A DNA stretch of 64,000 nt from assembly GCF_019972115.1 (NCBI RefSeq), contig NZ_BPFJ01000001.1, positions 930,001 through 994,000 of the forward strand, given 5' to 3'. Below, piece after piece: positions 17,804-55,647 of the stretch. Origin of the DNA: Sulfurovum sp. TSL6 (GTDB lineage: Bacteria; Campylobacterota; Campylobacteria; Campylobacterales; Sulfurovaceae). The stretch's first letter is position 1. Each line of letters begins with the position of its first letter. The translations under genes and the position numbers were made by a program. The notes below the pieces were generated by a model. The model saw only the letters and a program-made list of their open reading frames with translations. It made no database searches and had not been told where the DNA came from.

Positions 17804-17832
17804 TCTATTTAGTTAAACATTGTACCATGATA

Positions 17833-35702: not shown

Positions 35703-36617
35703 TTAATTCATAATTATTTCTTTTAGAGTCACTTTAACATTTTCCCCTAAGGCATTTACATTATAACCACCTTCTAAAAAAAATACAAAAGGAACATCTG
35801 CACTATCCAATATGAGCCTGACTATGCGTCTTATACCTTCAGTCGTGATGTTAAGCTGTGCCAAAGGATCACTTTCATGCAGATCATACCCTGCTGAAAC
35901 TAAAATGACGTCAGGGTTAAAGCCTTTGACAAAGGTAGGCAGATCATTTTCATAGATATCGAGTAATTCGATGTCAGTGCTTCCTGCCATCACTGGAAAG
36001 TTCGCAGTATATCCACTGCCTTTACCCTCACCTATATCTGATTTGGCACCTGTACCAGGAAATATATAAGCCTGGTGTGAAGAAAAATAAAATACTGAAT
36101 CATCATCATAAAAAATTTCTTGTGTTCCATTGCCATGATGCACGTCGAAATCTATGATCATCACTTTTTCATACCCTATACTCTGTGCATATCGTGCAGT
36201 TATAGCGATGTTATTGAAAAGGCAAAACCCCATGGCTTGTTCTGGTCTGGCATGATGTCCAGGAGGTCTTACGGCACAAAAAGCCCGTTCGAATTCTCCA
36301 GATCTTATACCATCCAACGCCACAACTCCTGCCCCTGCAGCCATTCTTGCTGCATCAAAAGAATCACTACTGCAAACAGTATCAGAATCTATACTTCCAC
36401 CATATGCACATATATGCTTTATATTTTCGATGTGATCAGCAGAATGTACAAGTTCCAGCATATCTTCTGAAGTACTTATAGGAGATTTTAATACCAATGA
36501 TGGATGCAATGGTTCAATGGCCTTATTAATAGCCTTCAGACGCTCTGGAGACTCGGGATGCATTGCACCCGTATTATGCTGTAGATAGATATCATCAGTT
36601 ATATATGCTACTTTCAT
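35703..36617 (-). CDS. Histone-deacetylase-family hydrolase
   Basis: The product is 304 residues, an arginase/deacetylase fold. The catalytic His pair is in RPPGHHARPEQAMGFCLFNN (about 114-133), and zinc ligands are in IDFDVHHGNGTQ (about 155-166) and SAGYDLHESDPLA (about 242-254), with FFLEGGYN near the end. Bacterial members deacetylate polyamines, acetoin-related or other amides. A role in acetylpolyamine use is possible. It is convergent with nothing and lies upstream of the RND halves on the same strand, 70 bases apart. Confidence 0.9.
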   Translation of the reverse strand: MKVAYITDDIYLQHNTGAMHPESPERLKAINKAIEPLHPSLVLKSPISTSEDMLELVHSADHIENIKHICAYGGSIDSDTVCSSDSFDAARMAAGAGVVALDGIRSGEFERAFCAVRPPGHHARPEQAMGFCLFNNIAITARYAQSIGYEKVMIIDFDVHHGNGTQEIFYDDDSVFYFSSHQAYIFPGTGAKSDIGEGKGSGYTANFPVMAGSTDIELLDIYENDLPTFVKGFNPDVILVSAGYDLHESDPLAQLNITTEGIRRIVRLILDSADVPFVFFLEGGYNVNALGENVKVTLKEIIMN

Positions 36618-36624
36618 GACACTA

Positions 36625-36909
36625 TTATACTCTATTTTTCAGTAGTGCTATCTCCTCTTTTAATGTTTCTATCTCTTTTTTAAGTCTTGCATTCTCTTTC
36701 TTTAAGCTATAGGGTTCTTTATTTTCTTCTTGAACGATAGAATTTTTTACCTTTTTCTCAACATCATCATCTAGTAAAATATAGACGACATCTTTACCGT
36801 TTTCTACTACTGTCTCTGTTGGAACTTGACCTGATTTGGTCATTTTCACCACATTGAATATACTTAATTTATGTTTTGCCGCATATGCTTTAATACTTAA
36901 TTTTTTCAT
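36625..36909 (-). CDS. Small coiled-coil protein with a possible helix-turn-helix
   Basis: From the ATG at 36909 (94 residues; GAGG 6 bases upstream, with another ATG one codon earlier) the N-terminal half reads KLSIKAYAAKHKLSIFNVVKM, which looks like a degenerate helix-turn-helix of the MerR/excisionase type. The C-terminal half (about 60-94) is a regular coiled coil of Leu, Lys and Glu heptads. It is predicted to be a small DNA-associated or scaffold protein. It precedes the deacetylase gene by 8 bases and is divergent from the first SYLF gene. Confidence 0.65.
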   Translation of the reverse strand: MKKLSIKAYAAKHKLSIFNVVKMTKSGQVPTETVVENGKDVVYILLDDDVEKKVKNSIVQEENKEPYSLKKENARLKKEIETLKEEIALLKNRV

Positions 36910-36942
36910 CATGATCCTCACAATTTATTTACTTTACTAAGA

Positions 36943-36974: not shown

Positions 36975-37526
36975 ATGTACATTAAAAAATTAAACCCAAT
37001 GATGCTATTACTTCTCATCTCTCTTTCTTTTACTCAATTTTCATTTGCAAAACCAGCTGTCCAACTCAATGCAGATGTTGATGCAGCCATCAAAAAATTT
37101 GAAAAAGAAGTGGTAGGGGGACCAGAATTTCTTTCAAAAGTCAAAGGTTATCTTGTCTTTCCTTCTGTCATAAAAGGTGGATTTATCTTTGGAGGTGAGT
37201 ATGGAGAAGGTGCCCTACGCGTAAATGGGACTACAAGACACTTTTATAGTATGACATCCGCTTCCATAGGATACCAAGCAGGTGTGCAAGAGCACTCGGT
37301 CCTCATTGCCTTCCTTTCAGAAGCCTCTTTAAACAATTTTATTCAAAGTAACGGATGGGAAGCCGGTGTAGATGGTGCTATCACTGTGGCAGACTGGGGT
37401 AAAAATAAAGATATCTCCTCTATCAGTTATGAAAAACCTATTGTTGCATTTATCTACGGTGCAGAAGGCTTAATGTTAGGTGTCAGTATAGAAGGTACAA
37501 AATTCCAAAGAATCATACCTAATTAA
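36975..37526 (+). CDS. Secreted SYLF/YSC84 lipid-binding protein, copy 1
   Basis: The product is 183 residues. The signal peptide (about 1-25, ending SFA) precedes a SYLF domain: KVKGYLVFPSVIKGGFIFGGEYGEGALRV, then SMTSASIGYQAGVQEHSVLIAF and a C-terminal AEGLMLGVSIEGTKFQRI. SYLF proteins bind membranes or phosphoinositides in eukaryotes. Bacterial secreted copies are of unknown function. This copy is the most divergent of three in tandem and is separated from the next by a hairpin. Confidence 0.9.
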   Translation: MYIKKLNPMMLLLLISLSFTQFSFAKPAVQLNADVDAAIKKFEKEVVGGPEFLSKVKGYLVFPSVIKGGFIFGGEYGEGALRVNGTTRHFYSMTSASIGYQAGVQEHSVLIAFLSEASLNNFIQSNGWEAGVDGAITVADWGKNKDISSISYEKPIVAFIYGAEGLMLGVSIEGTKFQRIIPN

Positions 37527-37542
37527 ATTTTTATTTCATTCT

Positions 37543-37568
37543 TTTGATGGAGATACTCCTCCATCAAA
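37543..37568 (+). terminator. Hairpin between SYLF copies 1 and 2
   Basis: TTTGATGGAG and CTCCATCAAA form a perfect 10-bp stem 17 bases after the first SYLF stop codon. A long T-rich stretch follows. It separates the first copy from the second, which has its own TATAAT-like promoter near 37680. Confidence 0.6.
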
Positions 37569-37712
37569 CATACTTGCATTCTCTTATCCATACATTTTAA
37601 ATTCTTCTCATTACCTTCTTTATATGCCTGTTTCTTTTTTATACATTCGTTCTACTTACTTTAATTATCTTTTGTGTTATAATAATATAATACCAATAAA
37701 TAAGGACAAGTG

Positions 37713-38267
37713 ATGAAAATATTGAAGTATATACCTATGTTATTTGTAATACTTTTAGCATTTACAACTACCTCTATGGCGACACTAAATTCTAAAAGTG
37801 AAATTGACAGGGATGCAAATGATGCACTCAGAACATTTTATAAAGAAGTCAAAGGTTCCAAAAAATATTTGGAACATGCGAAGGCTTACCTTGTCATCCC
37901 GGACATTAAAGAAGTAGGATTTTTTGTGGGTGGGAAATATGGTGAAGGTGCACTGCGTGTAGGTAACTCCACTAAAGCATATTACAGTATCACCTCTGCC
38001 TCTGTTGGTTTCCAAATGGGAGCACAAATGTATAATATGATCATCGCTTTTACTTCTGATGCTGCACTTAATAAATTCCTTCTATTAGACGAAGATGAAT
38101 GGGAAACAGATGTAGATGGTAAAATAGCTATCGCAGAGTGGAACTCTAAAGAAGAGCTTGATGATGTTGATTATGATGATGATATGGTTGCTTTTATCTA
38201 TGATTCAAAAGGAATGATGGGTAGCTTTACAATGGAAGGTACCAAATTTGAAAGAATCAAACCCTAA
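37713..38267 (+). CDS. Secreted SYLF/YSC84 lipid-binding protein, copy 2
   Basis: From the ATG at 37713 (AAGGAC 5 bases upstream; a GTG one codon earlier is less likely) the product is 184 residues. The signal peptide ends SMA near 23. The core GFFVGGKYGEGALRVGNSTKAYYSITSASVGFQ is shared with copy 3. An acidic loop, DVDYDDDM, precedes the conserved KGMMGSFTMEGTKFERI end. It is followed 26 bases later by copy 3, with which it is probably co-transcribed. Confidence 0.9.
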   Translation: MKILKYIPMLFVILLAFTTTSMATLNSKSEIDRDANDALRTFYKEVKGSKKYLEHAKAYLVIPDIKEVGFFVGGKYGEGALRVGNSTKAYYSITSASVGFQMGAQMYNMIIAFTSDAALNKFLLLDEDEWETDVDGKIAIAEWNSKEELDDVDYDDDMVAFIYDSKGMMGSFTMEGTKFERIKP

Positions 38268-38293
38268 TGAAAACTACACCTGAAGGACAAATA

Positions 38294-38851
38294 ATGAAAC
38301 TATTGAAAACTCTACCCCTTGTATTGGCTATGCTTCTGGCATTGACTGCTAACTCTATGGCTTTAGATGACACAGCTGAAGAAATTGATAATGATGCGAA
38401 TGAAGCACTCATAGTGTTCTATAAAGAAGTAAATGGCGGTAAAAAGTTTTTAGACAATGCAAAAGGCTACGTCGTATTTCCTGAGGTAACCGAAGGAGGA
38501 TTTTTTCTTGGCGGTAAATATGGCGAAGGAGCACTGCGTGTAAATGGTGTGACTGAAGGGTACTACAGTATTACATCTGCATCGATGGGAATGCAAATGG
38601 GGGTGCAACAATATTCTTTGATCATAGCCTTTACATCAGATCAGGCACTCAAAACTTTTATGCGGGATGATGATTGGGAAACTGAAATTGATATAAATGT
38701 CGCTATGGCTGAATATAATGCTGAAGAAGAAGCAGATGATGTTGACTTTGGTTCCAATATGGTTGGATTTGTATTTGATTCTAAGGGGATGATGGGTAAC
38801 TTTTCATTTGAAGGTACTAAATTTGAAAGAATAACACCTGATAAAGACTAG
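38294..38851 (+). CDS. Secreted SYLF/YSC84 lipid-binding protein, copy 3
   Basis: From the ATG at 38294 (GAAGGAC ribosome site identical in layout to copy 2; an in-frame upstream ATG lies directly after the copy 2 stop) the product is 185 residues. The signal peptide ends SMA. The SYLF core GGFFLGGKYGEGALRVNG and the ending GMMGNFSFEGTKFERI are nearly the same as in copy 2, so this pair is a recent duplication that includes the translation start region. It is convergent with the radical SAM gene, with a 4-base overlap of stop regions. Confidence 0.9.
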   Translation: MKLLKTLPLVLAMLLALTANSMALDDTAEEIDNDANEALIVFYKEVNGGKKFLDNAKGYVVFPEVTEGGFFLGGKYGEGALRVNGVTEGYYSITSASMGMQMGVQQYSLIIAFTSDQALKTFMRDDDWETEIDINVAMAEYNAEEEADDVDFGSNMVGFVFDSKGMMGNFSFEGTKFERITPDKD

Positions 38852-39717
38852 TGGTTAAAACGATCTTTATAAGAACACTTCTGGCAGAGCTCTTCCACCG
38901 CTTTGCCTTCTTTGAAACCCTCTAACATATTTACCGCACGTTTTGAAGTTAAAATTTCATACAGCGTATTTTTATGCAAGTCTCCAAGTTCTATGATCCC
39001 ATCACAATCCAAACAACAGGGTACCACTTTCCCACTGGCCAGGATAGCCACATGTGATTGTAAGCCCTGGCATGTGCCATGACCGTATACTTTATTGTTT
39101 AAAGAGGGCCATTCAAAGTAGTTGTCAAAATGTACAAGGATTTTAGAGGCTAGACGCAGTGACTTCGGTTTCTCTTCATAAATAGTGTGTAGATCAAGCT
39201 GGGTATCAAAAGCAGACGCAAGTTTTTCAAAGAGTGTTTCATTAAATGTTCGTTCACTCATCATCTCATCTAAATTCCATACACGCAAATTAATAAAAAG
39301 GTCTTCTTTCCTGTTCAGCTTAGCTTCACATAACGCAAGTACGGGATTCATGTACTGTTCAAATGTAATAGAAGTATCATTTTTATTGTAACTATTGAGT
39401 GAAATGTTGATCTGTTTGACACAAGGATGGAAAAGTGTATCATAAGAGTGTTTCTTTAAAAAGTATCCGCTGGTTGTCAGCATCGCTTTAAGCCCATGTT
39501 TATGGATAATATCTAAATAAGCATCCAAGTTAGAGAGTGTAAGAGGATCACCTACCACATGACAAGCGATCTCTTTGGTATACGATTTGGCTTGGTTGAC
39601 CATGGATTCAAAAAAGTCCAGATCCATCTCTTTAGTGGGTAACGCTTTTGTAGGACAAAAGCTGCAGGAGAGTCCACATACATTTGTAAGCTCGATGTAA
39701 ATACGGTAAAACTTCAT
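38848..39717 (-). CDS. Radical SAM protein with SPASM-like C-terminal cysteines
   Basis: The product is 289 residues. The 4Fe-4S motif CGLSCSFC is at about 14-21, followed by a TIM-barrel-like core with the GDPL motif. The C-terminal part has CQG, CCLDC and CQKC (about 220-285), a SPASM or twitch arrangement for auxiliary clusters. SPASM enzymes usually modify peptides or proteins, but other substrates are known. It is the last gene of the minus-strand unit and starts 6 bases after a secreted cysteine-containing protein, a possible partner. Confidence 0.85.
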   Translation of the reverse strand: MKFYRIYIELTNVCGLSCSFCPTKALPTKEMDLDFFESMVNQAKSYTKEIACHVVGDPLTLSNLDAYLDIIHKHGLKAMLTTSGYFLKKHSYDTLFHPCVKQINISLNSYNKNDTSITFEQYMNPVLALCEAKLNRKEDLFINLRVWNLDEMMSERTFNETLFEKLASAFDTQLDLHTIYEEKPKSLRLASKILVHFDNYFEWPSLNNKVYGHGTCQGLQSHVAILASGKVVPCCLDCDGIIELGDLHKNTLYEILTSKRAVNMLEGFKEGKAVEELCQKCSYKDRFNH

Positions 39718-39723
39718 AGAGGG

Positions 39724-40761
39724 TTATTTCATACAGATAGAAAGGTCAGTGATATTTTTTGCACGATTCACACAGGGTATGCGAGATTGCAGATCTATAA
39801 GTTCATCTTCTATTTTATCGAGTAATATATTTTTTCGTTTCTCATCCCAAAGTATAATGTCCTCATCCTTCTCTCTTCCCATTTGAGCCTTCATTTGACT
39901 AAAATGTTCCATACATTGATTGGCTGTAAAAGGGTCTTCAACTGTCTGTAGACATTCTCGTGTTTTCATCATAGATCTTAAGAGCTTAGGTAAGAGTTTC
40001 TTTTGTCTTTTATAAATATCTTTAGAAATGTGGTTAATAAACTTTCTCCTCTCTTCATCTTTTATCTCGCTGCTACTGTAACTTTCATTCATATCACTGA
40101 GACCAAAAGCAGTTTCTTTTAACATTTTATAAAAATTTTCAGCTTTATGTACATTCTTGGTTTTAATATCATGTTTAAAAAGCGCAAACTCTTTTACAGG
40201 GAAATCAGGGACGCCACACGCTTCATTGGAAGTATTTATATCAAAAATGACTTTAGTTGCCTCTTTTACATACAAAACATCTAGTACATGGGACTCTAAC
40301 TTAAGAACAATATTTTTATAAATGCATTTTTTTATACTTGCTCCCTCCCACACATCACAAAGAACACCGGCAACAGTTTCCTCTCCTGTTTTAGTAAAAG
40401 AAGCTGTTTCATCATGACCATGGATATCATAAGAGCTTTTTTTACGTTCCAATAGGTGTTCTTTTGTATAATCAGCAGTGATGACTGTATCTTTTGTATG
40501 TTTTTCCAATCTCTTTACATGCTGTTTATGTTTTATGGCGCCCGTAGTCAATACTACTCCGCTCTCTTCTTCCAGCTTCACTTTACCCCAGTCCTTAAAA
40601 CGCAATTTTGCCTTACCTTTTATACTGAGATTTGTTTCAGGGGTCAATTGTGTTCCGCCACTGATCTCATAAAGAACCATACCTGATTCTACTTCAAATG
40701 GATGTGTTGTCACTTCTGCTTGCAGAAATGTAACCCCTCCAATGAATAAAATCTTTTTCAT
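39724..40761 (-). CDS. Secreted protein of unknown function with seven cysteines
   Basis: From the ATG at 40761 the product is 345 residues. It starts with a signal peptide (MKKILFIGGVTFLQA), while earlier ATGs add an unlikely N-terminal extension. The mature part has a beta-rich N-terminal half (about 20-170) and a charged helical C-terminal half. It holds seven Cys, several near the C terminus (RECLQ, NQCME, IPCVN, SICMK). I recognise no family. It lies between an outer-membrane DUF1302 gene and a radical SAM gene, so a periplasmic role in the same pathway is likely. Confidence 0.75.
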   Translation of the reverse strand: MKKILFIGGVTFLQAEVTTHPFEVESGMVLYEISGGTQLTPETNLSIKGKAKLRFKDWGKVKLEEESGVVLTTGAIKHKQHVKRLEKHTKDTVITADYTKEHLLERKKSSYDIHGHDETASFTKTGEETVAGVLCDVWEGASIKKCIYKNIVLKLESHVLDVLYVKEATKVIFDINTSNEACGVPDFPVKEFALFKHDIKTKNVHKAENFYKMLKETAFGLSDMNESYSSSEIKDEERRKFINHISKDIYKRQKKLLPKLLRSMMKTRECLQTVEDPFTANQCMEHFSQMKAQMGREKDEDIILWDEKRKNILLDKIEDELIDLQSRIPCVNRAKNITDLSICMK

Positions 40762-40828
40762 ATGATGCCCAATAGACATAAGCTTCCTTATCTGCAGATG
40801 ATACATTAATGAGAGTATTGTAACATAA

Positions 40829-42220
40829 TTAAAAACTATAAGAGATATCTACAAACAACATGTCGTTATCTTTAATAGCATCAAAACTTAAAGTCCCACC
40901 TATATAATCTACAGCTCCGATATTCGTATTGATCCCCTCACCTAGTTCATACTTTATCCAAGCCCTCTGAAAACCACCTTCATCAAATTTTTCACCGTTC
41001 ATAAATATAAGATAATTTGCCGTCAGTGTTGCATGCATAAAGTCAGAGCTTATACGAAATGCATGTTGATAACTATGTTTATTTAATGGATTGAGTTCTT
41101 TCATAACTCTTTGATCATACTCACCGATATCTTTATGCACCAAATCATAGGAGATCATTGTATCGGCTATACCTTTATATTCAAACCCCAAAAGCAAGTC
41201 TCTTCTAGTGAATTCCTCCTCACCTGTTGTTGAATATTTGAGTCCATCAAAATATGCGAATTCTGTTTTTAATAACCAAGATCCATGAAGTACATTCAAT
41301 GCCGTACCAAACATATTGATTTTATCATGTTCTATGATGCTTGTTTGACCAGAGGAGACAATATATCCTTCATCATCACGTATGCGTGCTGCATAAAAAT
41401 TGATGTCCCAGCCTGTAAATTCACCACCTACAGAAAGTGCATAGCTTACATCAGAGTATTCTTTATCATCAGGAGCGGGTAATGGTGCAGGATAAAAAAC
41501 CGAGCCAAAAGGCGGTCTCTTAGTAAAACGTTGTTCCAGTATCGCAATGGGTGTTACTCGCCAATCTCCTATGAAATAGTCAAATTTCGCCATACTTACA
41601 GGTAGACGCAGGTTTTCTATATCTACCATACCTGGTCGACGGTTATCCAAGGGGTTAAGTATATCTGTTACCCGTATAGTATCACTTCTCCCCCATACAA
41701 CAACCTGACGCCCTAGTTTCATGTCAAAATTATCTGTAATGGTTCCTTGAATGTAGGCATCAAAAAGCTCTACTTCACTTCTAAGTTCATTTAACTCGTC
41801 TTGTGAGAACTTATCACTTCCCCGAATGTCATACATAGCATCATAATAGGCTTTAGCATTCGTTTTAAATTTAAAACCATTTTCAAACTTATGTTCATAA
41901 TCCAACTGAAATGAACTTTTGAAAGATGAGATATTGTCATGAGGTTTATCCGTATAGAGTGAATATACTGCTTGTTGCGTTAATTTTCCGGTAACTCCTG
42001 GCAATGAATATGTCGTATCTTCTACTTCCATCTCAATACCTGCGGTGGAAGTATCATCAAAACCATCTAGTAATGCATCTTCATCTGTATTTTCTTTTTC
42101 ATCCATACTGTCAAAAGGAGTATCATCAAAACCACTTAATGCTTCATCCAGCTCATTTGCGTGACCTCCAAGGCTCAATAGGACTATGGCTGTAAATACT
42201 GAAAAACGTATGCTATACAA
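40829..42220 (-). CDS. DUF1302-type outer membrane beta-barrel protein
   Basis: The product is 463 residues. It begins at a TTG preceded by AAGGGG; the preceding gene's stop abuts it. A signal peptide (about 1-21) is followed by an acidic segment with two GFDDT repeats (about 25-60), then a beta-barrel with the DUF1302 stretch DAYIQGTITDNFDMKLGRQVVVWGRSD and a terminal aromatic residue (SYSF). In other bacteria DUF1302 proteins are encoded with LolA-like and RND genes, as here. A channel or receptor for hydrophobic compounds at the outer membrane is inferred. Confidence 0.85.
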   Translation of the reverse strand: MYSIRFSVFTAIVLLSLGGHANELDEALSGFDDTPFDSMDEKENTDEDALLDGFDDTSTAGIEMEVEDTTYSLPGVTGKLTQQAVYSLYTDKPHDNISSFKSSFQLDYEHKFENGFKFKTNAKAYYDAMYDIRGSDKFSQDELNELRSEVELFDAYIQGTITDNFDMKLGRQVVVWGRSDTIRVTDILNPLDNRRPGMVDIENLRLPVSMAKFDYFIGDWRVTPIAILEQRFTKRPPFGSVFYPAPLPAPDDKEYSDVSYALSVGGEFTGWDINFYAARIRDDEGYIVSSGQTSIIEHDKINMFGTALNVLHGSWLLKTEFAYFDGLKYSTTGEEEFTRRDLLLGFEYKGIADTMISYDLVHKDIGEYDQRVMKELNPLNKHSYQHAFRISSDFMHATLTANYLIFMNGEKFDEGGFQRAWIKYELGEGINTNIGAVDYIGGTLSFDAIKDNDMLFVDISYSF

Positions 42221-43021
42221 CTACAGCCCCTTCTCTAGTCTACGCGTGGTAAACATATTGTCATCAATGGCCCTATTGAGTTTTATGTTAGAAAACTTCA
42301 AGAGGGTTTTGTGTAGAGTACTTTTACCTTTTTTTGTTGTCATCGTCATCTCATCAATAAGCCAAACTCCACCTTGTTTATGAAGTTTCTTAACATCCAG
42401 ATATTTTTTCCTGTTATTTTTCATAAACCCGATAGAACGAACCACTACATAATTATCCTGTCTTACAAGTGCTATACTTTTTGTATATCCTGACTCTTTC
42501 ACTACTTCAGATGTACGAGGTATGGCTTGTATCATCCATGCCTTGTTTCCTCTTACCTTTGTCTCTTTGAGTAATTTAAAATCATAATCTTCCAAATCTC
42601 TATCAGTCATATCAAAATAGGAAAAGTCTGATCCCATAAAGCTCGAACTTTTGTCTGAAGTCGGAATACGTTTCACTTTTTTAAGCGCTGGAAGGTAAAG
42701 CCACTGGTCGTCATCTCTACTCGAATCATCATAATCATACGTCAAAAAAGCTGTGTTCTTTACATCTGCGGGACTCTTAAAAAACATGATACGGTATTCA
42801 TCTTCTCCAAAATCTTTTCCATAGGATTTGATATCTCGATCTCTTGTATTACCATTTTTATCTATAAGTACCATAAGCATATCTTGTTCCAATGTTTGAC
42901 CATCATCTCTGGCATCTACTTTTTCCATAATGGCTCTTGCTTTTGGATCATCTGCAAAAAGATTGGTTGTTAGTAGTGTAGCCCCTAATGTAAGTGCTAA
43001 TAATATTTTTTTTCCAGTCAT
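42221..43021 (-). CDS. Outer membrane lipoprotein-sorting (LolA-like) protein
   Basis: The product is 266 residues. The signal peptide (about 1-23, ending LFA) precedes a LolA/LolB-fold half-barrel with LYLPALKKVKRIPTSDKSSSFMGSDFSYFDM (about 105-135), a diagnostic stretch of the PF17131-like family. Such proteins shuttle hydrophobic molecules across the periplasm. The gene lies between the RND permease and the DUF1302 barrel, so it could bridge the two membranes. Confidence 0.88.
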   Translation of the reverse strand: MTGKKILLALTLGATLLTTNLFADDPKARAIMEKVDARDDGQTLEQDMLMVLIDKNGNTRDRDIKSYGKDFGEDEYRIMFFKSPADVKNTAFLTYDYDDSSRDDDQWLYLPALKKVKRIPTSDKSSSFMGSDFSYFDMTDRDLEDYDFKLLKETKVRGNKAWMIQAIPRTSEVVKESGYTKSIALVRQDNYVVVRSIGFMKNNRKKYLDVKKLHKQGGVWLIDEMTMTTKKGKSTLHKTLLKFSNIKLNRAIDDNMFTTRRLEKGL

Positions 43022-43035
43022 TTATTCTCCTTTGA

Positions 43036-45438
43036 TTATTTGATCCATCCGCGTTTTGCGATCACGATCATGAGTGCAGGAGCAAGTAACAGGTCAGCTA
43101 AAAGTGCCAATACGATCACAGAGCCTGTAAGCAGTCCAAAGTTTTGTACAGAGATCATATTTGCCATCATGTATGCGTAAAAACCTAATGATAAAACTAT
43201 CGTGGTGATCACCATCGCTTTACCTGTTGTAAAGAAGGTTTGCTCTATGGCTTTGGCACTGTCCCCGCTCTCCAGGTAGTATCTTCTAAAATTGTGTAGG
43301 AAGTGTATAGTGTCATCCACCGCAAGTCCTATAGCAATAGAACCGATAAGCAGTGTGAACATATCGAGTGGAATATGGGCAAAATACATCAATAATAATC
43401 CCATAATGATAGGTGTTAAGTTCGGTATCATACTGATAAGCCCTATGCGCACGGAACCCAAAATAAGCATCATCATAAAAGTAATACCAACAAAGGCGAT
43501 GAAATAACTTGTCACTGATGAACTTACGGCATGAGAGAAAGTATTGATCAGTAGAGGGATCATCCCTGTGGTCACAATGACATCATCAGGAAATGTTTTT
43601 GTTGCTATTTCTTTGACATATCCCAACACTTGCGTAGCACGTACAGCATCTGTCCATGGAAGTTTAATACTGATACGTGCTTTAGAAATCTGGCTGTCTA
43701 CCACATCTTCCAAATCATCTGAACCTGAGTTTTCAAACAGTAACAACTCTTGAGAAACAAGGTCAGCATTGTCTGGAATTGTATAATAGGTTTCTTTATT
43801 TTCATGCAATGCTCTGTTGGTCTCTTTAACAATCGTTGCCAGAGAGACCACTTTTCCTATATGTGTATAGTTATCCACATACTGTTCCATCTCTTTAGAA
43901 AGCTTATTGAGTTTTTCAAGTCTTATCGGGTCATTCCAGCCATTCTCTTTTTGTGTATCTATGATCAGCTCTATGGTCACTGAGCCGTTGAGTTTTTCGT
44001 CTATCGTTTCTGTAGAGATGCGGTCATAACTGTCCGGTTGGAACCATTTAAGTGGATTATGTGAAAGCTCTATCTTTATAGCCGCAGCCAATGCCACGAA
44101 TACCAATACGGTACTAACTACAATAATACTTTTATAATGATTAACAGGAATCACAGCAAGTTTTTTCATAAATCTATCTAGTTTACCCGCTTCAGTTTTC
44201 ACCTTTTGTTTCATTTTAGTAATACTTAAAAGTGCAGGAAGTAAAGTAAGTGTTAAAAATAATGAGATCATCACTCCAAGTGAAGCAAACCTACCCAAAT
44301 CTGATATAGGCGCTACTTGAGAGCCAGAAAATGATCCCACACCGATCGCAGTGGTCACAGATGTCATGGCAATAGCCAGTCCCGAGTGTTTCAGTGTGTA
44401 TATAATGGATGCTTTTTTATTACCAGATGTATTGAACTTATCAAAAAAGATAGAGAGTATGTGTACTGTTGCACCAATACTGACAGCTAAAAGAAGTGAC
44501 GGAACAATTTGTGTAGGAAGCTTAAAGGCTACCCCGCTCCATGCCATGGTACCTACCGTTGCGAGCAAAGAAAGAATGATCACGATCAGTGGATAAAATA
44601 CTGCTGAGGCACGTCGAAACATGACAAATAAAAAAACAAGTATGATAAGAAAAGTAATACGCATGAACTTTTGCATATCTGCCTGCATTTGCGATTTGAG
44701 AGCATGGTTCACAGAGGGGGAACCTGCTACGTATATCTCCACTCCCTCTTTTTTATACTTTTGGGTTATGGCTAATACTGCTGAGACCAACTGTGCATTT
44801 TCTCTATCGGTTAAAAATGCTCTTTCTTTGGTTTCACTTGCTCCTATTCCTGCATCTTCTTCAAAACCTTCATCAAATGCATCAATATCTGACACCTTTT
44901 CTTCACCTTCATGAGAGTAAGCATCAGTCTCTATGATCAACGTAGTCATCTTTCCATCTCTACTGATAAAAAGATCTTTATAAAAGTGTGATGTGAGTGC
45001 ACGCTGTTTAATAGCCTCTACTTCTTCTTGTGTAGTAGGAAAAGGTTCTAATAGATCATCAGTGATAAGTTTATCTCCCTCTCCTCTGGTATTTCTTACG
45101 TTATACAATGAAGTGATATCATCTACAAAAGGTACATTTGATTCAATCTCTTCATGCAGTGTTTTAAGTGTTTCAAAAAACTGTAGCGTAAAGATATTAT
45201 CACTTTTAAGGGCCACAATCACTCGCTCATCACGTCCAAACTGAGCTCTGAAATCATTATATTCCAAAAGTACAGGATCGTCATCATGCATAAACCCTTC
45301 TGTAGAAGTGTCCATCTTTATCTGTGGAACATGAGAGAGAGGGAAAGCTAAAAGTATGACAATAAACATGATAACTTTTAGGGGATTGTCATATATAAAT
45401 GCTCCCATCTTTCCCATGAGATTTTCTAGCTTGTTATG
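43036..45438 (-). CDS. MMPL/HAE3-type RND permease
   Basis: From the ATG at 45438 (AAAGGAT 5-6 bases upstream; an earlier ATG at 45459 lies before the ribosome site) the product is 800 residues. Two halves each have one helix, a periplasmic domain and five helices: LLAVSIGATVHILSIFFDKF in the first and GSIAIGLAVDDTIHFLHNFRR in the second, which has the acidic pair DD. At about 800 residues it is shorter than HAE1 pumps and resembles HpnN or MmpL transporters of lipids and hopanoids. It is the first gene of a five-gene unit with LolA-like and DUF1302 proteins. Confidence 0.88.
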   Translation of the reverse strand, partial: HNKLENLMGKMGAFIYDNPLKVIMFIVILLAFPLSHVPQIKMDTSTEGFMHDDDPVLLEYNDFRAQFGRDERVIVALKSDNIFTLQFFETLKTLHEEIESNVPFVDDITSLYNVRNTRGEGDKLITDDLLEPFPTTQEEVEAIKQRALTSHFYKDLFISRDGKMTTLIIETDAYSHEGEEKVSDIDAFDEGFEEDAGIGASETKERAFLTDRENAQLVSAVLAITQKYKKEGVEIYVAGSPSVNHALKSQMQADMQKFMRITFLIILVFLFVMFRRASAVFYPLIVIILSLLATVGTMAWSGVAFKLPTQIVPSLLLAVSIGATVHILSIFFDKFNTSGNKKASIIYTLKHSGLAIAMTSVTTAIGVGSFSGSQVAPISDLGRFASLGVMISLFLTLTLLPALLSITKMKQKVKTEAGKLDRFMKKLAVIPVNHYKSIIVVSTVLVFVALAAAIKIELSHNPLKWFQPDSYDRISTETIDEKLNGSVTIELIIDTQKENGWNDPIRLEKLNKLSKEMEQYVDNYTHIGKVVSLATIVKETNRALHENKETYYTIPDNADLVSQELLLFENSGSDDLEDVVDSQISKARISIKLPWTDAVRATQVLGYVKEIATKTFPDDVIVTTGMIPLLINTFSHAVSSSVTSYFIAFVGITFMMMLILGSVRIGLISMIPNLTPIIMGLLLMYFAHIPLDMFTLLIGSIAIGLAVDDTIHFLHNFRRYYLESGDSAKAIEQTFFTTGKAMVITTIVLSLGFYAYMMANMISVQNFGLLTGSVIVLALLADLLLAPALMIVIAKRGWIK

Positions 45439-45672
45439 CATTACTATCCTTTTTTTCATAAATATATAGTCATATTATTTACTGTTTATGTATTTTATTA
45501 TTATTACTTTATAACTATGTTATAAGTGTTACTAATTATTATTTTATTTTTTGATACTCTTTATCTTGATAAAATATCAGTGCCTCACTGTATGTATCAG
45601 AGCCTTTAACCATAAAACTCATAGATATCAACATACTGCATAAGCTCACACTGAATATCTAGTTACGTAATA

Positions 45673-48600
45673 TTAAACTTTTCCTTTTTCATACCATTTT
45701 CTAAGCCATGCATCCATCGGGTACATGATACGGTAAATAGCAGGAACCACTAAAAGCGTCAAAATAGTAGAACTCATTAATCCTCCAATGATCGCCAGTG
45801 CCATAGGTGCATTACTCTCATGCCCTGCGCCGCCTCCAAATGCCAAAGGAAGCATCGCACCTATCATGGCAAAAGTGGTCATCAAAATAGGACGAAGTCT
45901 TTTTTCACCCGCTTCCAAAATGGCTTGATTCACCTCTTTACCTTCTTTGATCGCCTGATTAGCAAAGTCAACGACCAAAATAGCATTCTTCCCGACCATA
46001 CCCAATAAGAGGATGATCCCAATCATTACAAAGAGACTGAAATTGTTTCCCGTCAAATAGAGTGCCACGATAACCCCTGTAAATGAAAGTGGCATCGCCA
46101 CCATGATAATGAACGGTTGAATGATCGACTCATACAATGCAGCAAGGATCAAATAGATCAAAATGATCGCCAAAAGTACTGCAGCACCGAACGCTGCATT
46201 GGTATCAGCCATATTCTCAATATCACCCGTATAGCGGTAGTTATACCCCGCAGGTAGTATGTCTCCTATTTTCTCATCCACAACTTTCATGATCACATCC
46301 AAACTGGTCTCAAACATTCCTGATGTCACCATTACTTTTCGCTCGCGATCATAACGGTTAATAGATGATGTACCCGTATGTTCTTCAAAAGTGATCAAAC
46401 CTTCAAGCGAGACAAATTCACCATCACTGTTTTTGATCTGCAGTTTTTTAATATCATCAATAGAACTGCGATATTTATCTTCAAAACGCAAGGTAATGTC
46501 AAACTCTCGTCCATTCTCTTCGTAATATGAGATGGCTCTATCACTGGAATATGCACTCGACAGGATACCTGCTATCTCGTCGGCACTCACACCGGAACGC
46601 TGTGCATTTTCTCTTAAGATATTTATTTTTATCTCAGGTTTTCCACTCTCATAATCTCTATCTATACCTACCACCCCTTTGGTCTGTTTAAGCAGATCCA
46701 TGAGCTTTTGGGTTGTTTCGTTCAGTACATCAAGATCATCCCCTGTGACAACGATCTGTACGGGTGCATTACTGCTTCCCGTATCAAAGGGCGCAACTTC
46801 TTCAACCGTAACGACCATATCTTTGATCGTTTTAAATGCATTGGTATATTGCTGCACGACATCTTCTTGTGAAACGGACCTCTGTGCTACGGGCTTGAGT
46901 TTCGCATAGATCTTGGCTTTATGGATCTCCTTGGCACTGTTATAACCAATGGACAATACTGAATATTCTATATTCTCATCACTCTGCATCTTCTCAAGCA
47001 TAGGCATCATTTTTTTCTTCATTTCTTCCAGACTTGTTCCAACCGGAGCTTTGGTAAATACCTGAAACTCACTGTTGTCCTGCATCGGTACGAAGTCCAT
47101 ACCTGTAGAGAGTTTGGTTGAGGCAACCAATACGCCTATCGTTACCAAAATAGTGATCCACTTAAAACGGATCAATGGTTTAAGCAGAGCTACATACGCT
47201 CTGTCAAGTCCAACAAAAATTGGCTCTGTCAAATGGAAAAATTTACTTTCCTTGGAACTTAAAACACGTGCCCCAACCGTCGGTATGAACATGACCGCTA
47301 CCAAATAGGAAAGTACAACACCTGCAGCTACCGTCATGGCAAAAGAATTAAAGAACATACCCACAATACCATCCATAAAGGCAACAGGTACAAACACGGC
47401 AAGCAACACTGAAGAGATCGCTAAAATAGAAAATGACACCTCTTTGATCCCTTCAAGAGAAGCTTGAAACGGCTCCATTCCTGCTTCCATCTTTTTAGTG
47501 ATATTTTCAATCACAACGATCGCGTCATCAATAAAGATACCAATGGCAAGTGTAAGTCCTATCAGTGTGAGTTTATTTAAGTCGTACCCCATCCAGTCAA
47601 TAATAGCAAACGTACCAATGATGGATGTTGGAATGGCAAGCGCTGAAACAAGGGTTGCAGTAACATTTCTAAGGAAGAAAAATACGATGATGATCGCCAG
47701 GATCGATCCGTAAATAAGATCGAAGGTTACATTATCAATATTCACCATGATCTTATCGCTCTGATCTTGAAGCAATTGCAATGTGTAATTATCCCCGGCA
47801 ATGGTTTCAAGACGAGGCATCACCTCTTTTACCCCTTTAATGATATCCAGTACATTTTCACCAGAGATCTTTTTCACTTCAAGCATCACACCTTGATTCC
47901 CATTGTACGAAGAGTAACTGCTACTGTCACTCAATCCATCTACAACACGTGCCACATCTTTCAGTTTAATTCCCGGTTTAATGATCAATTCTCGAAGATC
48001 ATCTACACTGATAGCATCCGCTTTCACTTTGATCACTGTCTCTTTTTGATCACTGATAAGCTTACCTGCTCCCTGGTTAATATTCTGAGCAGCAACAATA
48101 TTTTGAACATCAAGTGCTGTGAGATCATATTTATTGAGTTTAAACGGGTCAACAAAGATCCGTACTTCTCTATCTTGATACCCAATGATATTGACTTCAC
48201 CTACCCCTTTGATCCGCTGCAGTTTGGGTTTGAGCTTTTCATCTGCCATTCGCATGAGTGCAGTGACATCACCTGTTTTCGTCGCAACAAAAAGGTTAAT
48301 CACCACACCACTTGCACCCAATTTTTTCACGATAGGTTTCTCAACTTCATTGGGCAGCAGTACAGAACCTATCTTGTCACGTACATCATTGGTTGCTTCA
48401 TCGATATTCTTAAAAAGTTCAAACTGTATGGTAACCGTACTAAAACCTTCATAGGAGGTTGACATCAGTTTATCGATCCCATCGATCCCGCTGACAGCTT
48501 CTTCCAGTTTATCGGTTACTTTGGTCTCGACTGTACTGGCATCAGCTCCATCATAGGTGGTTTGAATGGTGACCACAGGAAAATCAACATTGGGAAAAAG

Positions 48601-48699
48601 ATTCACTGGCATCGTGTTATACGACATCAATCCAAATACAATAAAGGACAATACGCCCATCAGTGTTGTGATGGGTCTGTTTATAGCAAATTTATACAT
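45673..48699 (-). CDS. HAE1-type RND multidrug efflux permease (AcrB-like)
   Basis: The product is 1008 residues with 12 membrane segments. The N-terminal TMPVNLFPNVDFPVVTIQT, TM4 GIFIDDAIVVIENI with the acidic pair and TM10 GMVGKNAILVVDF with the proton-relay Lys are all intact. A complete pump with the preceding adaptor (48706) and TolC (49401) genes is encoded in order. It should expel drugs or toxic hydrophobic molecules. A 234-base gap with no gene follows before the next minus-strand operon. Confidence 0.94.
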   Translation of the reverse strand: MYKFAINRPITTLMGVLSFIVFGLMSYNTMPVNLFPNVDFPVVTIQTTYDGADASTVETKVTDKLEEAVSGIDGIDKLMSTSYEGFSTVTIQFELFKNIDEATNDVRDKIGSVLLPNEVEKPIVKKLGASGVVINLFVATKTGDVTALMRMADEKLKPKLQRIKGVGEVNIIGYQDREVRIFVDPFKLNKYDLTALDVQNIVAAQNINQGAGKLISDQKETVIKVKADAISVDDLRELIIKPGIKLKDVARVVDGLSDSSSYSSYNGNQGVMLEVKKISGENVLDIIKGVKEVMPRLETIAGDNYTLQLLQDQSDKIMVNIDNVTFDLIYGSILAIIIVFFFLRNVTATLVSALAIPTSIIGTFAIIDWMGYDLNKLTLIGLTLAIGIFIDDAIVVIENITKKMEAGMEPFQASLEGIKEVSFSILAISSVLLAVFVPVAFMDGIVGMFFNSFAMTVAAGVVLSYLVAVMFIPTVGARVLSSKESKFFHLTEPIFVGLDRAYVALLKPLIRFKWITILVTIGVLVASTKLSTGMDFVPMQDNSEFQVFTKAPVGTSLEEMKKKMMPMLEKMQSDENIEYSVLSIGYNSAKEIHKAKIYAKLKPVAQRSVSQEDVVQQYTNAFKTIKDMVVTVEEVAPFDTGSSNAPVQIVVTGDDLDVLNETTQKLMDLLKQTKGVVGIDRDYESGKPEIKINILRENAQRSGVSADEIAGILSSAYSSDRAISYYEENGREFDITLRFEDKYRSSIDDIKKLQIKNSDGEFVSLEGLITFEEHTGTSSINRYDRERKVMVTSGMFETSLDVIMKVVDEKIGDILPAGYNYRYTGDIENMADTNAAFGAAVLLAIILIYLILAALYESIIQPFIIMVAMPLSFTGVIVALYLTGNNFSLFVMIGIILLLGMVGKNAILVVDFANQAIKEGKEVNQAILEAGEKRLRPILMTTFAMIGAMLPLAFGGGAGHESNAPMALAIIGGLMSSTILTLLVVPAIYRIMYPMDAWLRKWYEKGKV

Positions 48700-48705
48700 T
48701 ATTCC

Positions 48706-49404
48706 CTACTTTACTGTTATGTATCCGTCACCAAAGAGTCCTACAGGGAAACTCTCAGCTCTGACCTCAGCCAACATCTTTCGTGATTTTGCATCTATGG
48801 TCGGATAAATCTTATAAATGGTTCCATCATACACTCTGTCATCCCCATCTATCTTGTATTTAAAACTATCACCAACCTTCACTTTGCCATGATATTTTTG
48901 ATCAAACTTGAGTATCAGTTTTCTTGCTTTCAGACTTTGTATATCATATACTTCCGTGATCATTTGGCCACTGACCACATCACCGATCTCTATACGCTTT
49001 GCAGTAATGATACCATCAAAAGGGGCACGTAAATAGGTTTTAGCTAAAAGTGCCTCCTGATACTTGAGTTGCACTTTTGCATTATCATATTTGTAGGCAT
49101 AACTTTCAAACAGGGAAACATTAATATGCTGCTGAACCTTTTTTTGTCTCTCATAATCACTCTTTGCATATTTCAATGCTACTTTTGATACCTCAACCAT
49201 CGCTTCAATGTCATCATTGAGTAACTCAGCTAAAAGTTCATCTCTTTTTACTTCAGAACCGATATCCACATGCATCTGTCCCACAATACCGCTGCTGCTG
49301 AATGCCAAAGAGGCACTCTTCTCCGCTTTTACATCAAATGTTGCATAGATCTCCTCTGCATTCAAATGCAGCACCGCCAATAATAAAACTACCATCTTCT
49401 TCAT
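48706..49404 (-). CDS. RND periplasmic adaptor (membrane fusion protein)
   Basis: The product is 232 residues. The signal peptide ends NAEE-like near 18. Then comes a lipoyl/hairpin region (VGQMHVDIGSEVKRDELLAELLNDD, about 38-62), a helical hairpin of about 60 residues and beta-barrel strands. It is short for the family (usually 350 or more), because the hairpin and distal domain are reduced. It overlaps tolC by 4 bases and precedes the permease by 6. Confidence 0.88.
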   Translation of the reverse strand: MKKMVVLLLAVLHLNAEEIYATFDVKAEKSASLAFSSSGIVGQMHVDIGSEVKRDELLAELLNDDIEAMVEVSKVALKYAKSDYERQKKVQQHINVSLFESYAYKYDNAKVQLKYQEALLAKTYLRAPFDGIITAKRIEIGDVVSGQMITEVYDIQSLKARKLILKFDQKYHGKVKVGDSFKYKIDGDDRVYDGTIYKIYPTIDAKSRKMLAEVRAESFPVGLFGDGYITVK

Positions 49405-50648
49405 CTAATAAACTCCTTTGGGTCTTTCCCTGCATAGTAATAATAGATCGATTTGCCGATCTCATAATCATAAAGTGTCTCTTTGTAGCGTGACTGAGCC
49501 AGTGTTTTTTGCGTCAGTGCATCAAGAAAAGCAATATTGTCGATCAAACCGACTTCAAATTTCTTTTTGAGCACATCATACGTACTTTTTGCAGCGCGCA
49601 AAGCACTTTTGGCACTTTTCAGTCTGGTACGTATGGTCTCCAAACTTTTTTGTGACAGGTTATAATTCATCTTTTGTTCATTTTTTGCATAATCGATTTC
49701 AGAAAGCAGTGCCATTTTCTGATATTTCACTGCTTCACTTTCTTTAGACATTCTGTCATTATCAAAAAGCCTCATATTGACTGAAATCATTAATTTGTTC
49801 TGATGGTCTAGCAATAACCCATCTCCAGAAAAGTCTCCCATAGAAACGGTATCATCAAAATGTGATTTGTTATAGATATCAGATATATTTACCTGAGGTC
49901 TATAGCCTGCATGGATCGCCTTAGAGTTTTCACCTACCGCATTGGCATTGGCTTGAAGCATTTTGATGTTTTCAAAGATTTCAAATCGCACATTATCCGG
50001 TTCTTTGAAATAATTCTTTTTTAACTGTATCACAGGCAAACCGCTAAGAAGTTCCAGGTTTCTTTCACTTGTTAAAAGTTCCAGCTTTGTGTTAGCCATC
50101 GTGTAATTATTACTGTCATACTCTGCTTGAAGTTTATCTACCTCTTCTTGCGTAGAAAGACCTGCACTTTTAAACTTTCTTATACGTTTTATCTGTTCTT
50201 TCAGTTCAATAGAACGCTCATTTAATGCTTCCAATGTCGCTTTGAGTTTCTGTAATCCATAATAATAGCGCACTATCTCTAATGTAATACTCTTTTCAAA
50301 AGCACGTTTTTCAAACTGAGCTGCCTCATGTTCATAGCGTTTGGCACTCAGTATGGCACTTTTCCTACCCCCGTCATAGAGCTCCAGGTTCACCGTTGCA
50401 AAAGCTGTCGACGTTTGTCCTGGATTCACAAGATTATTTGGAGAGACATAACTGTGATTTGCTCCAACATCCACTGTCGGCCAGTAAGCACTTTTAGCCG
50501 CATCCACTTCTTCTTGTTTGGCTTTGATCCGTATCTCTTTCGCTGTGATCAACCCATTCTCTTTATTGGCATTCTCTACCAATGTTTTTAAACCATAACT
50601 TTGTGCAAAGACAAACAAAGGTAAAAACAATCCTAACACTATTCTCAT
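49401..50648 (-). CDS. TolC-family outer membrane efflux protein
   Basis: The product is 415 residues. The signal peptide (about 1-15) precedes two repeats of the TolC fold, long helices with the FEKSITLEIVRYYYGLQKLKATLE and LLSEIDYAKNEQKMNYNLSQKSLE type heptads. It forms the exit duct of the pump. It overlaps tetR by 4 bases (ATGA). Confidence 0.92.
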   Translation of the reverse strand: MRIVLGLFLPLFVFAQSYGLKTLVENANKENGLITAKEIRIKAKQEEVDAAKSAYWPTVDVGANHSYVSPNNLVNPGQTSTAFATVNLELYDGGRKSAILSAKRYEHEAAQFEKRAFEKSITLEIVRYYYGLQKLKATLEALNERSIELKEQIKRIRKFKSAGLSTQEEVDKLQAEYDSNNYTMANTKLELLTSERNLELLSGLPVIQLKKNYFKEPDNVRFEIFENIKMLQANANAVGENSKAIHAGYRPQVNISDIYNKSHFDDTVSMGDFSGDGLLLDHQNKLMISVNMRLFDNDRMSKESEAVKYQKMALLSEIDYAKNEQKMNYNLSQKSLETIRTRLKSAKSALRAAKSTYDVLKKKFEVGLIDNIAFLDALTQKTLAQSRYKETLYDYEIGKSIYYYYAGKDPKEFIR

Positions 50649-51244
50649 CTAATATCCTTCTTTTGAATAAGCGTAAAAAAGGCTTCAACAAATTGATCGA
50701 TATGCATTTTGGCATCAATGCAATCAACTTTTGATTCTACCACCATACCTATAGAATACGTATGCAACATCCCGACCAGATCTTTGGCCTCTGTTTTGAT
50801 CTCTCCCTTGATAACAGCATCATCTATGATCTGAGCCAATATGGTCAGGAACTTTTCACGACATGCCCTACTGAACTCTATCATCTCATCTACATTTGAT
50901 GTCAGTGAAATAGCTAAAAATTCTCTATAGATAGATAACTGTTTTTCATAATACGGATCACTGTAGAGTAGAGACAAAGATCTTTTGATCTTTTCTTTGG
51001 TACTTATATCTTCATCGATAAGTTCATAAAGCCGCTTTTCATGTTCCGAAATAAACACTGAAATGATCTCAAAAACGATATCTTCTTTATTGCTGAAGTA
51101 CTCATAGATCGTACCTTTACCTACGCCTGCGCATTCTGCTATTTTGGAAATTGTAATATTTTTTATACCATGTTCAAGTAACAAGCTTTTGGAAGCAAGC
51201 GCTATAGAACGGCGTTTTTCTTCTTTATTTACAACAATTGGCAT
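50645..51244 (-). CDS. TetR/AcrR-family repressor of the efflux operon
   Basis: The product is 199 residues. The N-terminal HTH (about 10-60) carries ISKIAECAGVGKGTIYEYFSNKED, which is classical TetR. The C-terminal ligand-binding domain is helical. It is the first gene of the tolC-adaptor-RND operon, and a palindrome is placed just after the predicted start of transcription. Autoregulation and ligand-induced release are inferred. Confidence 0.93.
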   Translation of the reverse strand: MPIVVNKEEKRRSIALASKSLLLEHGIKNITISKIAECAGVGKGTIYEYFSNKEDIVFEIISVFISEHEKRLYELIDEDISTKEKIKRSLSLLYSDPYYEKQLSIYREFLAISLTSNVDEMIEFSRACREKFLTILAQIIDDAVIKGEIKTEAKDLVGMLHTYSIGMVVESKVDCIDAKMHIDQFVEAFFTLIQKKDIR

Positions 51245-51382: not shown

Positions 51383-52024
51383 CTAACTGTTCTTCAACCT
51401 ATGTATCAGTACGACCAAAGTGACCCAAAAGAGCCCCAGCCCTATTCCCGCGATCACGTCACTCAACCAATGTACATTTAAATACACTCTGGAAAAAGCA
51501 ATGATGACCGGCCACACTATACAACCCATCCATAACAATAACTGCAAACTTATGGAATGCACTCTTTTAGCAAAGATCAAATAGACAGCCAGTGACATTG
51601 CCGTTGCCATTGTTGCATGCCCTGAGGGAAAAGAATGGGTTGCTATCGTAAGTAACTCTGAACTCGGTCTGGCACGCTGCACGATCATTTTGATAACAAC
51701 AAAAGATATATTTGCACCAAAGACAGAAAAGATATAGAATAAAAGATCGTTATACCATTTTTTATAGATCAAAAAGAATATCATGAAGATTGAAAAAACA
51801 AAAATGCCCATGGCACCGTTGAAGTTGGTCAGTGCCACCATAAACTTAGTTAATAATGGGGTCTGAACAGCATTAATATAAGTCTCTATCCATCGATCTA
51901 TCACCAGAATATATTCTTTTTCTATCACATCTTCGGCCATTTTTGCAAACAGATAAAAGCCTAGAATATTCATCATGATGAGTGCTTTGTTTTTTAAAAG
52001 AAATGTGAGTATTTTAGTTTTCAT
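51383..52024 (-). CDS. PAP2-family membrane phosphatase
   Basis: The product is 213 residues with about six membrane segments. The three PAP2 motifs are complete: KMIVQRARP (about 109-117), HSFPSGHA (about 128-135) and SRVYLNVHWLSDVIAG (about 178-193). Family members remove phosphate from undecaprenyl pyrophosphate, phosphatidate or lipid A. It stands next to the Pqi cluster and might act on lipids in the same envelope. It is monocistronic. Confidence 0.92.
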   Translation of the reverse strand: MKTKILTFLLKNKALIMMNILGFYLFAKMAEDVIEKEYILVIDRWIETYINAVQTPLLTKFMVALTNFNGAMGIFVFSIFMIFFLIYKKWYNDLLFYIFSVFGANISFVVIKMIVQRARPSSELLTIATHSFPSGHATMATAMSLAVYLIFAKRVHSISLQLLLWMGCIVWPVIIAFSRVYLNVHWLSDVIAGIGLGLFWVTLVVLIHRLKNS

Positions 52025-55612: not shown

Positions 55613-55615
55613 AGA

Positions 55616-55625
55616 TATAATTATA
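55616..55625. promoter_or_regulatory. Palindromic TATAATTATA shared by two divergent genes
   Basis: The 10-base palindrome contains TATAAT on each strand. On the plus strand it would start transcription near 55628, 20 bases before the kinase ATG at 55648. On the minus strand it would start near 55613, at or one base before the pqiA ATG at 55612, which would be a leaderless mRNA. The two promoters would exclude each other. No other -10 is visible in the 35-base gap. Confidence 0.4.
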
Positions 55626-55647
55626 GCTGATATAACTAAGGACACTA

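Follow-up and report, generated by a model that had tools for sequence, protein, structure and literature searches.

We analyzed a window of 64,000 nucleotides (nt) from Sulfurovum sp. TSL6 (contig NZ_BPFJ01000001.1, positions 930,001 to 994,000; window positions are counted from 1), in which five adjacent open reading frames (ORFs) on the minus strand encode, in order, an RND transporter, a LolA-like protein, a DUF1302 protein, a secreted protein here called P2, and a radical SAM enzyme (rSAM). With moderate confidence, the locus is read as a layered envelope-lipid transport island of two neighboring units rather than as a five-gene modification system. Unit 1 (RND, LolA-like, DUF1302) would move a hydrophobic molecule between membranes, by analogy with AmeABCD and PP_0765/0766/2018/2019. 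Unit 2 (P2, rSAM) appears to have been associated for longer, and more widely, with PqiAABC, encoded farther upstream, than with unit 1. The locus is conserved in relatives, and its units are separable there. The single dedicated five-gene system proposed in the first-pass annotation of this DNA was not borne out.

Gene content of the locus

The RND gene (43036–45459) encodes an MMPL/HAE3-type inner-membrane transporter of 807 amino acids (aa; PF03176, E 1.5e-34). Its frame opens at ATG 45459, with an alternative second ATG at 45441; the previously annotated end at 45438 has no start codon. It is followed by genes for a periplasmic LolA-like protein of 266 aa (42221–43021; PF17131, E 2.3e-52, 177.7 bits), a DUF1302 beta-barrel of 463 aa with a TTG start (40829–42220; PF06980, E 2.2e-29), P2 (39724–40806), predicted to have a LolA fold and a C-terminal helical double-CX12C domain, and a radical SAM/SPASM enzyme of 289 aa (38848–39717; PF04055, E 1.3e-10; PF13186, E 9.4e-12). 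P2 may start at 40761, 40779 or 40806, all in-frame ATGs. With ATG 40761 the four gaps are 14, 0, 67 and 6 nt, as first annotated, and with the other two starts the third gap is 49 or 22 nt, respectively. In other respects the initial order and positions agreed with the ORF list, and the domain labels (MMPL, LolA-like, DUF1302, radical SAM/SPASM) were upheld by Pfam. The description of P2 as cysteine-rich holds in a mild form, with about seven Cys in 345 residues, of which six are conserved.

A PqiAABC set, absent from the first-pass annotation, is encoded upstream in the same window (52201–55645, minus strand). It comprises two copies of PqiA (54953–55645, PF04403, E 5.4e-37; 54357–55013, E 3.2e-45), a PqiB with three MCE/MlaD domains (52764–54356; PF02470, E 3.7e-29, three stretches), and a PqiC-type lipoprotein (52201–52764; PF03886, E 1.6e-30), all with Pfam matches over the cut-off. 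The set was located by searching the genome with PqiB of relatives in which PqiA-PqiA-PqiB-PqiC adjoins P2-rSAM. The order in the window is PqiABC, a PAP2-family phosphatase, an efflux operon, RND, LolA-like, DUF1302, P2 and rSAM.

The locus in related genomes

Compared genomes and loci are numbered with the prefixes G and L, respectively; most of the named relatives in which P2 was found belong to Sulfurovum. The order of the five genes is not due to chance, as it recurs in further Sulfurovum genomes: all five genes were found in order in 4 of the 26 named loci (L092, L093, L099, L106; the contig of L099 begins within its RND gene), and two further loci keep the order up to the contig end (L097, L115). 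An RND gene stands directly before P2-rSAM, without LolA-like and DUF1302 genes, in four of the 26 (L095, L096, L098, L104; the RND gene of L104 is preceded by PqiABC), and PqiC takes this place in eight (L102, L103, L105, L109, L110, L112, L113, L114). P2-rSAM is preceded by an efflux RND in one locus (L100), by two genes in another, one of them for a patatin-type phospholipase (L107, which also gave a weak fatty-acid-desaturase match below the cut-off), and by other genes in three (L101, L108, L111); three loci are cut at P2 (L094, L116, L117). Most relatives have P2-rSAM without adjoining LolA-like and DUF1302 genes, and in many of them PqiC lies about 80–190 nt upstream. Judged by these neighborhoods, the last two genes of the run are largely independent of the others in relatives, an outcome that the first-pass annotation had named, together with a lack of co-transcription, as telling against a common system.

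In genera g1 and g4, 51 genomes match P2, and linkage was tabulated for 50 of them. G062 (partial match) was excluded, the piece adjoining rSAM was used for G074 instead of the best match, two pieces were merged for G043, and the counts of pqiB omit its distant paralogues, which have about 30% identity (e.g., in G092 and G104). The rSAM gene lies 2–34 nt downstream of P2 on the same strand in 41 of the 50, from which the two genes are probably co-transcribed in Sulfurovum; P2 occurs without rSAM in G102, G110, G114, G136 and G143. In 27 genomes, that of the window included, pqiB lies at most 12 kilobases upstream of P2 on the same strand; in the remaining ones it is far away (2), on another contig (13), or without a match (8). 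Altogether, 95 genomes match P2. The 44 from other genera are outside the table, and in the nine of those inspected (L119–L126, L128) the P2-like genes have other neighbors.

Several genomes show further combinations of the same modules. The order is PqiABC-RND-P2-rSAM in G067, and in G135 (L129) PqiA-A-B-C is followed after 28 nt by RND, LolA-like and DUF1302. In G102, G136 and G143, pqiB is followed by one or two RND genes, LolA-like, DUF1302, a two-component pair and P2. The efflux block adjoins P2 in G122, G124 and G142, and does so with one gene between in G133. The insertion between efflux RND and P2 in G133 (L033, 8207–9472) encodes Sel1 repeats and an outer-membrane phospholipase A1 (PF02253, E 2e-79). 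G130 has RND-RND-LolA-DUF1302-rSAM twice, without P2; the copies (L070, L071) are on different contigs and could represent two strains binned together (listed contamination, 3%). In other genera, RND-LolA-DUF1302 was also found away from P2 and Pqi (L057, L059, L061, L065), and the three-gene set is therefore portable.

Marine sulfur bacteria repeatedly accumulate envelope-lipid genes at this chromosomal site. Unit 1 and the efflux operon would have occupied the space between PqiC and P2 in the ancestor of the window genome, and in relatives this slot would have been emptied or refilled. Passive co-localization, that is, chance synteny with no common substrate for PqiABC, the RND set, P2 and rSAM, is a possible though doubtful explanation. 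In its favor are unrelated genes among the neighbors (efflux pumps, histidine kinases, OmpA/VWA) and the genomes G024 and G042, where pqiB lies about 0.4–0.5 megabases from P2. It fits poorly with the range of lipid-related genes that entered the same slot, which include PqiABC, MMPL RNDs with or without LolA/DUF1302, the phospholipase A of G133, and the patatin and sub-cut-off desaturase match of L107.

The RND, LolA-like and DUF1302 module

The best NCBIfam match of the RND protein was TIGR00921 (HAE3; E 2e-62, 211 bits), below its cut-off of 351.9, and PF03176 was over its cut-off. The hopanoid transporter HpnN was rejected as a candidate (TIGR03480, 116.7 bits against a cut-off of 751.85; NF052374, 54.6 against 1100). 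The LolA-like protein matched DUF1329 (PF07044) with 41.9 bits (cut-off 23.1) as well as PF17131, likewise over the cut-off, and phmmer aligned it to 9tp6 (title: P. gingivalis LolA3) with E 8.3e-46. The DUF1302 protein matched PF06980 with 103.4 bits (cut-off 23.2); its outer-membrane location is suggested by the family and by AmeA/PP_0765. No AmeC-type (COG4447) gene was found among the window neighbors, and PF14870, which we take to stand for COG4447, was unmatched in the whole genome. The first-pass view of RND, LolA-like and DUF1302 as a recurrent set for hydrophobe transport was confirmed. By analogy with the characterized sets, the RND protein would extract a hydrophobic molecule from the inner membrane or pass one into it, the LolA-like protein would shield the molecule during its passage through the periplasm, and the outer-membrane end of the unit would be the DUF1302 barrel.

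The RND protein of the window keeps the Asp pair of its second half (GLAVDDTIHF). The pair is DD in all nine compared RNDs still standing with LolA-like and DUF1302 genes, and it is altered (DN, ET, AN, EG) in all four RNDs beside P2 without them (L095, 5495–7894; L096, 5521–7959; L098, 5633–7903; L104, 5379–7754). These four transporters are possibly de-energized or repurposed. Since they lost the pair while P2 and rSAM stay, P2-rSAM outlives the transporter. In the RND tree, two of these P2-adjacent RNDs (G067, G137) are on very long branches and thus fast-evolving; their placement was not otherwise used.

The region upstream of P2

A conserved block of 46 base pairs (40806–40851, minus strand) spans the 3' end of DUF1302 (final codons and stop) together with the P2 leader; within it is TGTTACAAT, which is extended −10-like. 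Its identity to the window is 42/46 in G124 and G142 and 37/40 in G122 (91–92%). In these three genomes, which lack the whole three-gene set, DUF1302 included, about 100 nt separate the end of the efflux gene from P2; in G133, 23 of 25 nt of the block are kept. For L093 a later start was used than for the other rows, and its upstream comparison is not in register. Since genomes without DUF1302 retain the block, P2-rSAM is probably transcribed from a promoter of its own, and the block is probably this P2 promoter and/or a DUF1302 relic in relatives that lost the gene. As the simplest account, the three-gene set would have been present first and then deleted in the G122-like lineage, which may have retained the end of DUF1302 because it carries the P2 promoter. 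The rSAM identity of G148 (L032/L092), at 86% against 92–93%, places this genome outside the G122-like group; it has the three-gene set. A terminator scan was uninformative (10 terminator-like sites against 5.5 expected, standard deviation 2.9).

The radical SAM enzyme

The Cys residues of rSAM were kept in 72 of 72 homologues, both in the CX3CX2C motif (C14, C18, C21) and at the five C-terminal SPASM positions C216, C234, C235, C278 and C281. The enzyme was found in 185 of 298 genomes of the class Campylobacteria (E 1e-30), mostly without P2, and in 87 of 150 genomes of the family (E 1e-15). Across 23 loci without the P2-rSAM pair (15 from other families, 8 from the same family), no neighbor of rSAM recurred beyond a few loci, the most frequent being an ABC-ATPase group in six and a short HIT-like gene in four, both named by eye. 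Owing to this class-wide occurrence and the lack of a recurrent neighbor, rSAM has no specific tie to either P2 or the transporter. It would be an ancient, free-standing enzyme of Campylobacteria rather than one dedicated to P2. In L144 and L145 (family f2, two members), rSAM adjoins a LolC/LolE permease-like gene, named by eye.

The nearest solved sequence was BtrN (E 1.1e-8), a partial match over residues 3–105; BtrN is a small-molecule enzyme. The surroundings were also considered as a cluster for a ribosomally synthesized and post-translationally modified peptide. The gene 6 nt upstream is P2, of about 345 aa and two predicted domains, and the ORF list covers ORFs of at least 80 aa. With P2 so close upstream and the SYLF gene downstream overlapping by 4 nt, there is little room for a short precursor peptide.

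SPASM enzymes frequently modify peptides or proteins, and P2 and rSAM could accordingly be a substrate-maturase pair in which rSAM modifies P2, e.g., near the CX12C motifs, before export and independently of the transporter. We regard this as unlikely, despite the position of rSAM directly downstream of P2 (2–34 nt, same strand, 41 of 50 genomes). The enzyme is spread over 185 of the 298 class genomes and full-length P2 over one family, P2 persists without rSAM in the five genomes listed above, and the nearest solved relative, by partial match, is the small-molecule enzyme BtrN. Two P2 positions at least 90% conserved in the 41 rSAM-linked rows, K166 and S341, are changed in all three rows without rSAM, which would suit a modified substrate, but all three rows seem to come from a single lineage, and several of the rSAM-linked rows likewise have A or N in place of S341. 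This co-variation, apparently confined to one lineage, was set aside and not used for the two-unit reading.

The P2 protein

P2 matched no Pfam family; among sub-threshold Pfam and NCBIfam matches the best were Evr1_Alr (0.086, far below the cut-off) and choice-of-anchor L (0.066), and assignment to a known family was rejected. No LolA-clan profile in Pfam matched at E 0.1. Residues are numbered from ATG 40761. In the alignment, C270, C283, C330 and C135 are invariant, and C343 and C146 are invariant or nearly so. An AlphaFold model of full-length P2 (24 sequences) has 11 antiparallel strands in residues 26–172 and a helical C-terminal part. Its top solved Foldseek matches were LolA proteins (8orn, LolA-LolB, E 1.3e-5), with VioE and DUF1849 also among the matches. 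VIA comparisons gave Z 10.3 for DUF1849 (6ntr; 3.3 Å, 153 aligned), 9.3 for RseB (3m4w; 3.7 Å, 142 aligned) and 8.3 for LolA (1iwl; 4.0 Å, 137 aligned). The N-terminal half is thus likely of the LolA/RseB-like fold class, with putative lipid binding. The C-terminal domain, modeled alone (pLDDT 91.3), forms two helical hairpins with one CX12C pair each (C270/C283, C330/C343), and is predicted to be helical and disulfide-braced. It had no Foldseek match at 1e-3 and VIA gave only unrelated helical bundles (Z at most 7.8), from which no new fold was deduced.

The model suggests that P2 is an undescribed protein family with a LolA fold. It would be a second LolA-fold periplasmic protein beside that of unit 1, probably a carrier or sensor of lipid or lipoprotein, to judge from fold and company. 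The first-pass annotation had suggested that P2 is a modification target or a carrier. The carrier part was a fair guess, given the predicted LolA-type fold of the N-terminal half; the data did not single out P2 as the substrate of rSAM.

Full-length P2, with both halves matched, was found in 13 of the 298 class genomes, all of family f1; partial matches were one more in f1 and nine outside it, with one part only. The TSL6 genome also has a shorter P2 paralogue of the LolA-like half, without the C-terminal domain (L002, 1399–2106; C1:307968–308537), which adjoins flavin-oxidase-like and quinone-reductase-like genes, named by eye. Tandem divergent P2 paralogues stand beside the P2-rSAM pair in L049 (752–1885), L072 (6767–7900) and L101 (5170–6339), in one case with an intervening OmpA-domain gene and, upstream, a VWA gene.

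Weighing of the explanations

Several points weigh against the island of two units. In seven named genomes searched for pqiB beside the three-gene set, all seven have it, but it was not placed next to the P2 locus, so a universal linkage to Pqi does not follow. The relatives are not independent samples, and the counts reflect shared descent. A promoter scan of the region gave 38 sites against 37.5 in shuffles, none above chance, so the P2 promoter is proposed from conservation. The P2 model is modest (mean pLDDT 68.7, TM-scores below 0.5, Foldseek rmsd about 7–15 Å), and VioE (Z 9.3) and PNGase domains fall in the same VIA Z range as LolA.

Beyond the two-unit reading, a composite lipid route can be envisaged, in which the PqiABC MCE bridge and the HAE3 RND-LolA-DUF1302 set serve one lipid pool and P2, braced by disulfides, acts as a LolA-type shuttle of a new kind or as a lipoprotein sensor, either matured by rSAM or carrying a lipid made by it. 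We hold this to be quite improbable. If it is true, G135, where PqiABC is followed after 28 nt by RND-LolA-DUF1302, would be the bare version and the window the full one. A dedicated five-gene operon, in which RND-LolA-DUF1302 exports the product of rSAM acting on P2, is very improbable: the full order in L092, L093, L099 and L106 (to contig ends in L097 and L115) and the short gaps favor it, but the modules separate in many combinations, the block before P2 is older than DUF1302 or survives its loss, and RNDs without LolA/DUF1302 lost the Asp pair, yet P2-rSAM persist.

Neighboring genes

The PAP2-family phosphatase gene (51383–52024, minus strand; PF01569, E 2.6e-21) lies between PqiC and the efflux operon. 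The latter (45673–51244, minus strand) encodes, by Pfam, a TetR regulator, an OEP/TolC-like protein, an HlyD-like MFP and an AcrB-type RND, and lies between Pqi and the five genes. On the other side, three tandem SYLF (Ysc84) genes (36975–38851, plus strand; PF04366 each) are convergent with rSAM; the 3' ends of rSAM and the third SYLF gene overlap by the 4 nt mentioned above. The third SYLF protein scored 143.7 bits with NF049970 (SYLF lipoprotein model), below the cut-off of 200. One to three SYLF genes, most often one, follow rSAM in most relatives, and convergent SYLF genes were present in nearly all loci whose contig extends that far. A histone-deacetylase-domain gene behind a small coiled-coil gene (35703–36921) adjoins the SYLF genes in many Sulfurovum loci. 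Elsewhere in the window (16210–18833), LptA-like and LptC-like genes in a run with HAD hydrolase, GTPase and GNAT genes are another envelope-lipid cluster.

Relation to known systems

In Castellaniella defragrans, the AmeABCD cluster encodes an HAE3-type RND along with a periplasmic protein of the LolA superfamily and an outer-membrane DUF1302 protein (PMC6394551). The window shares this RND, LolA-superfamily and DUF1302 cluster; it differs in having no AmeC, in its reversed order (RND first), and in the addition of P2-rSAM and, further up, PqiABC. Pseudomonas putida PP_0765/PP_0766/PP_2018/PP_2019 comprise DUF1302, LolA-superfamily (DUF1329) and RND proteins with proposed transport of hydrophobic substrates (Tween 20 growth; PMC10866462). 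By their locus tags these genes are at two loci, and the LolA-like protein of the window is of the shorter PF17131 type. PqiABC is a putative phospholipid transport system of the MCE pathway (PMC10897342), and the window has its components upstream on the same strand, with two PqiA, a three-MCE PqiB and PqiC.

P2 shares the predicted antiparallel sheet (residues 26–172) with the LolA/RseB/DUF1849 fold family, from which it differs by lacking a sequence-profile match and by its extra helical C-terminal domain with two CX12C pairs. BtrN-like radical SAM enzymes are the closest to rSAM among solved sequences, by a partial match only. A search of open-licence PMC papers found no report of Pqi with RND-LolA-DUF1302 or with a LolA-fold partner. 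For the whole combination it gave the AmeABCD and P. putida precedents only, which leaves its absence from print unproven.

Overall, the locus is a variant arrangement of known kinds of transport together with one undescribed protein family. The class-wide orphan rSAM is separated by these comparisons from a misleading operon context. The way in which phospholipids and other hydrophobic molecules traverse the periplasm is still debated, and work on the MCE, RND and LolA-type routes has usually treated each separately. In the window they occur together at one locus, and in some relatives they are contiguous, which offers a natural test of a common substrate.

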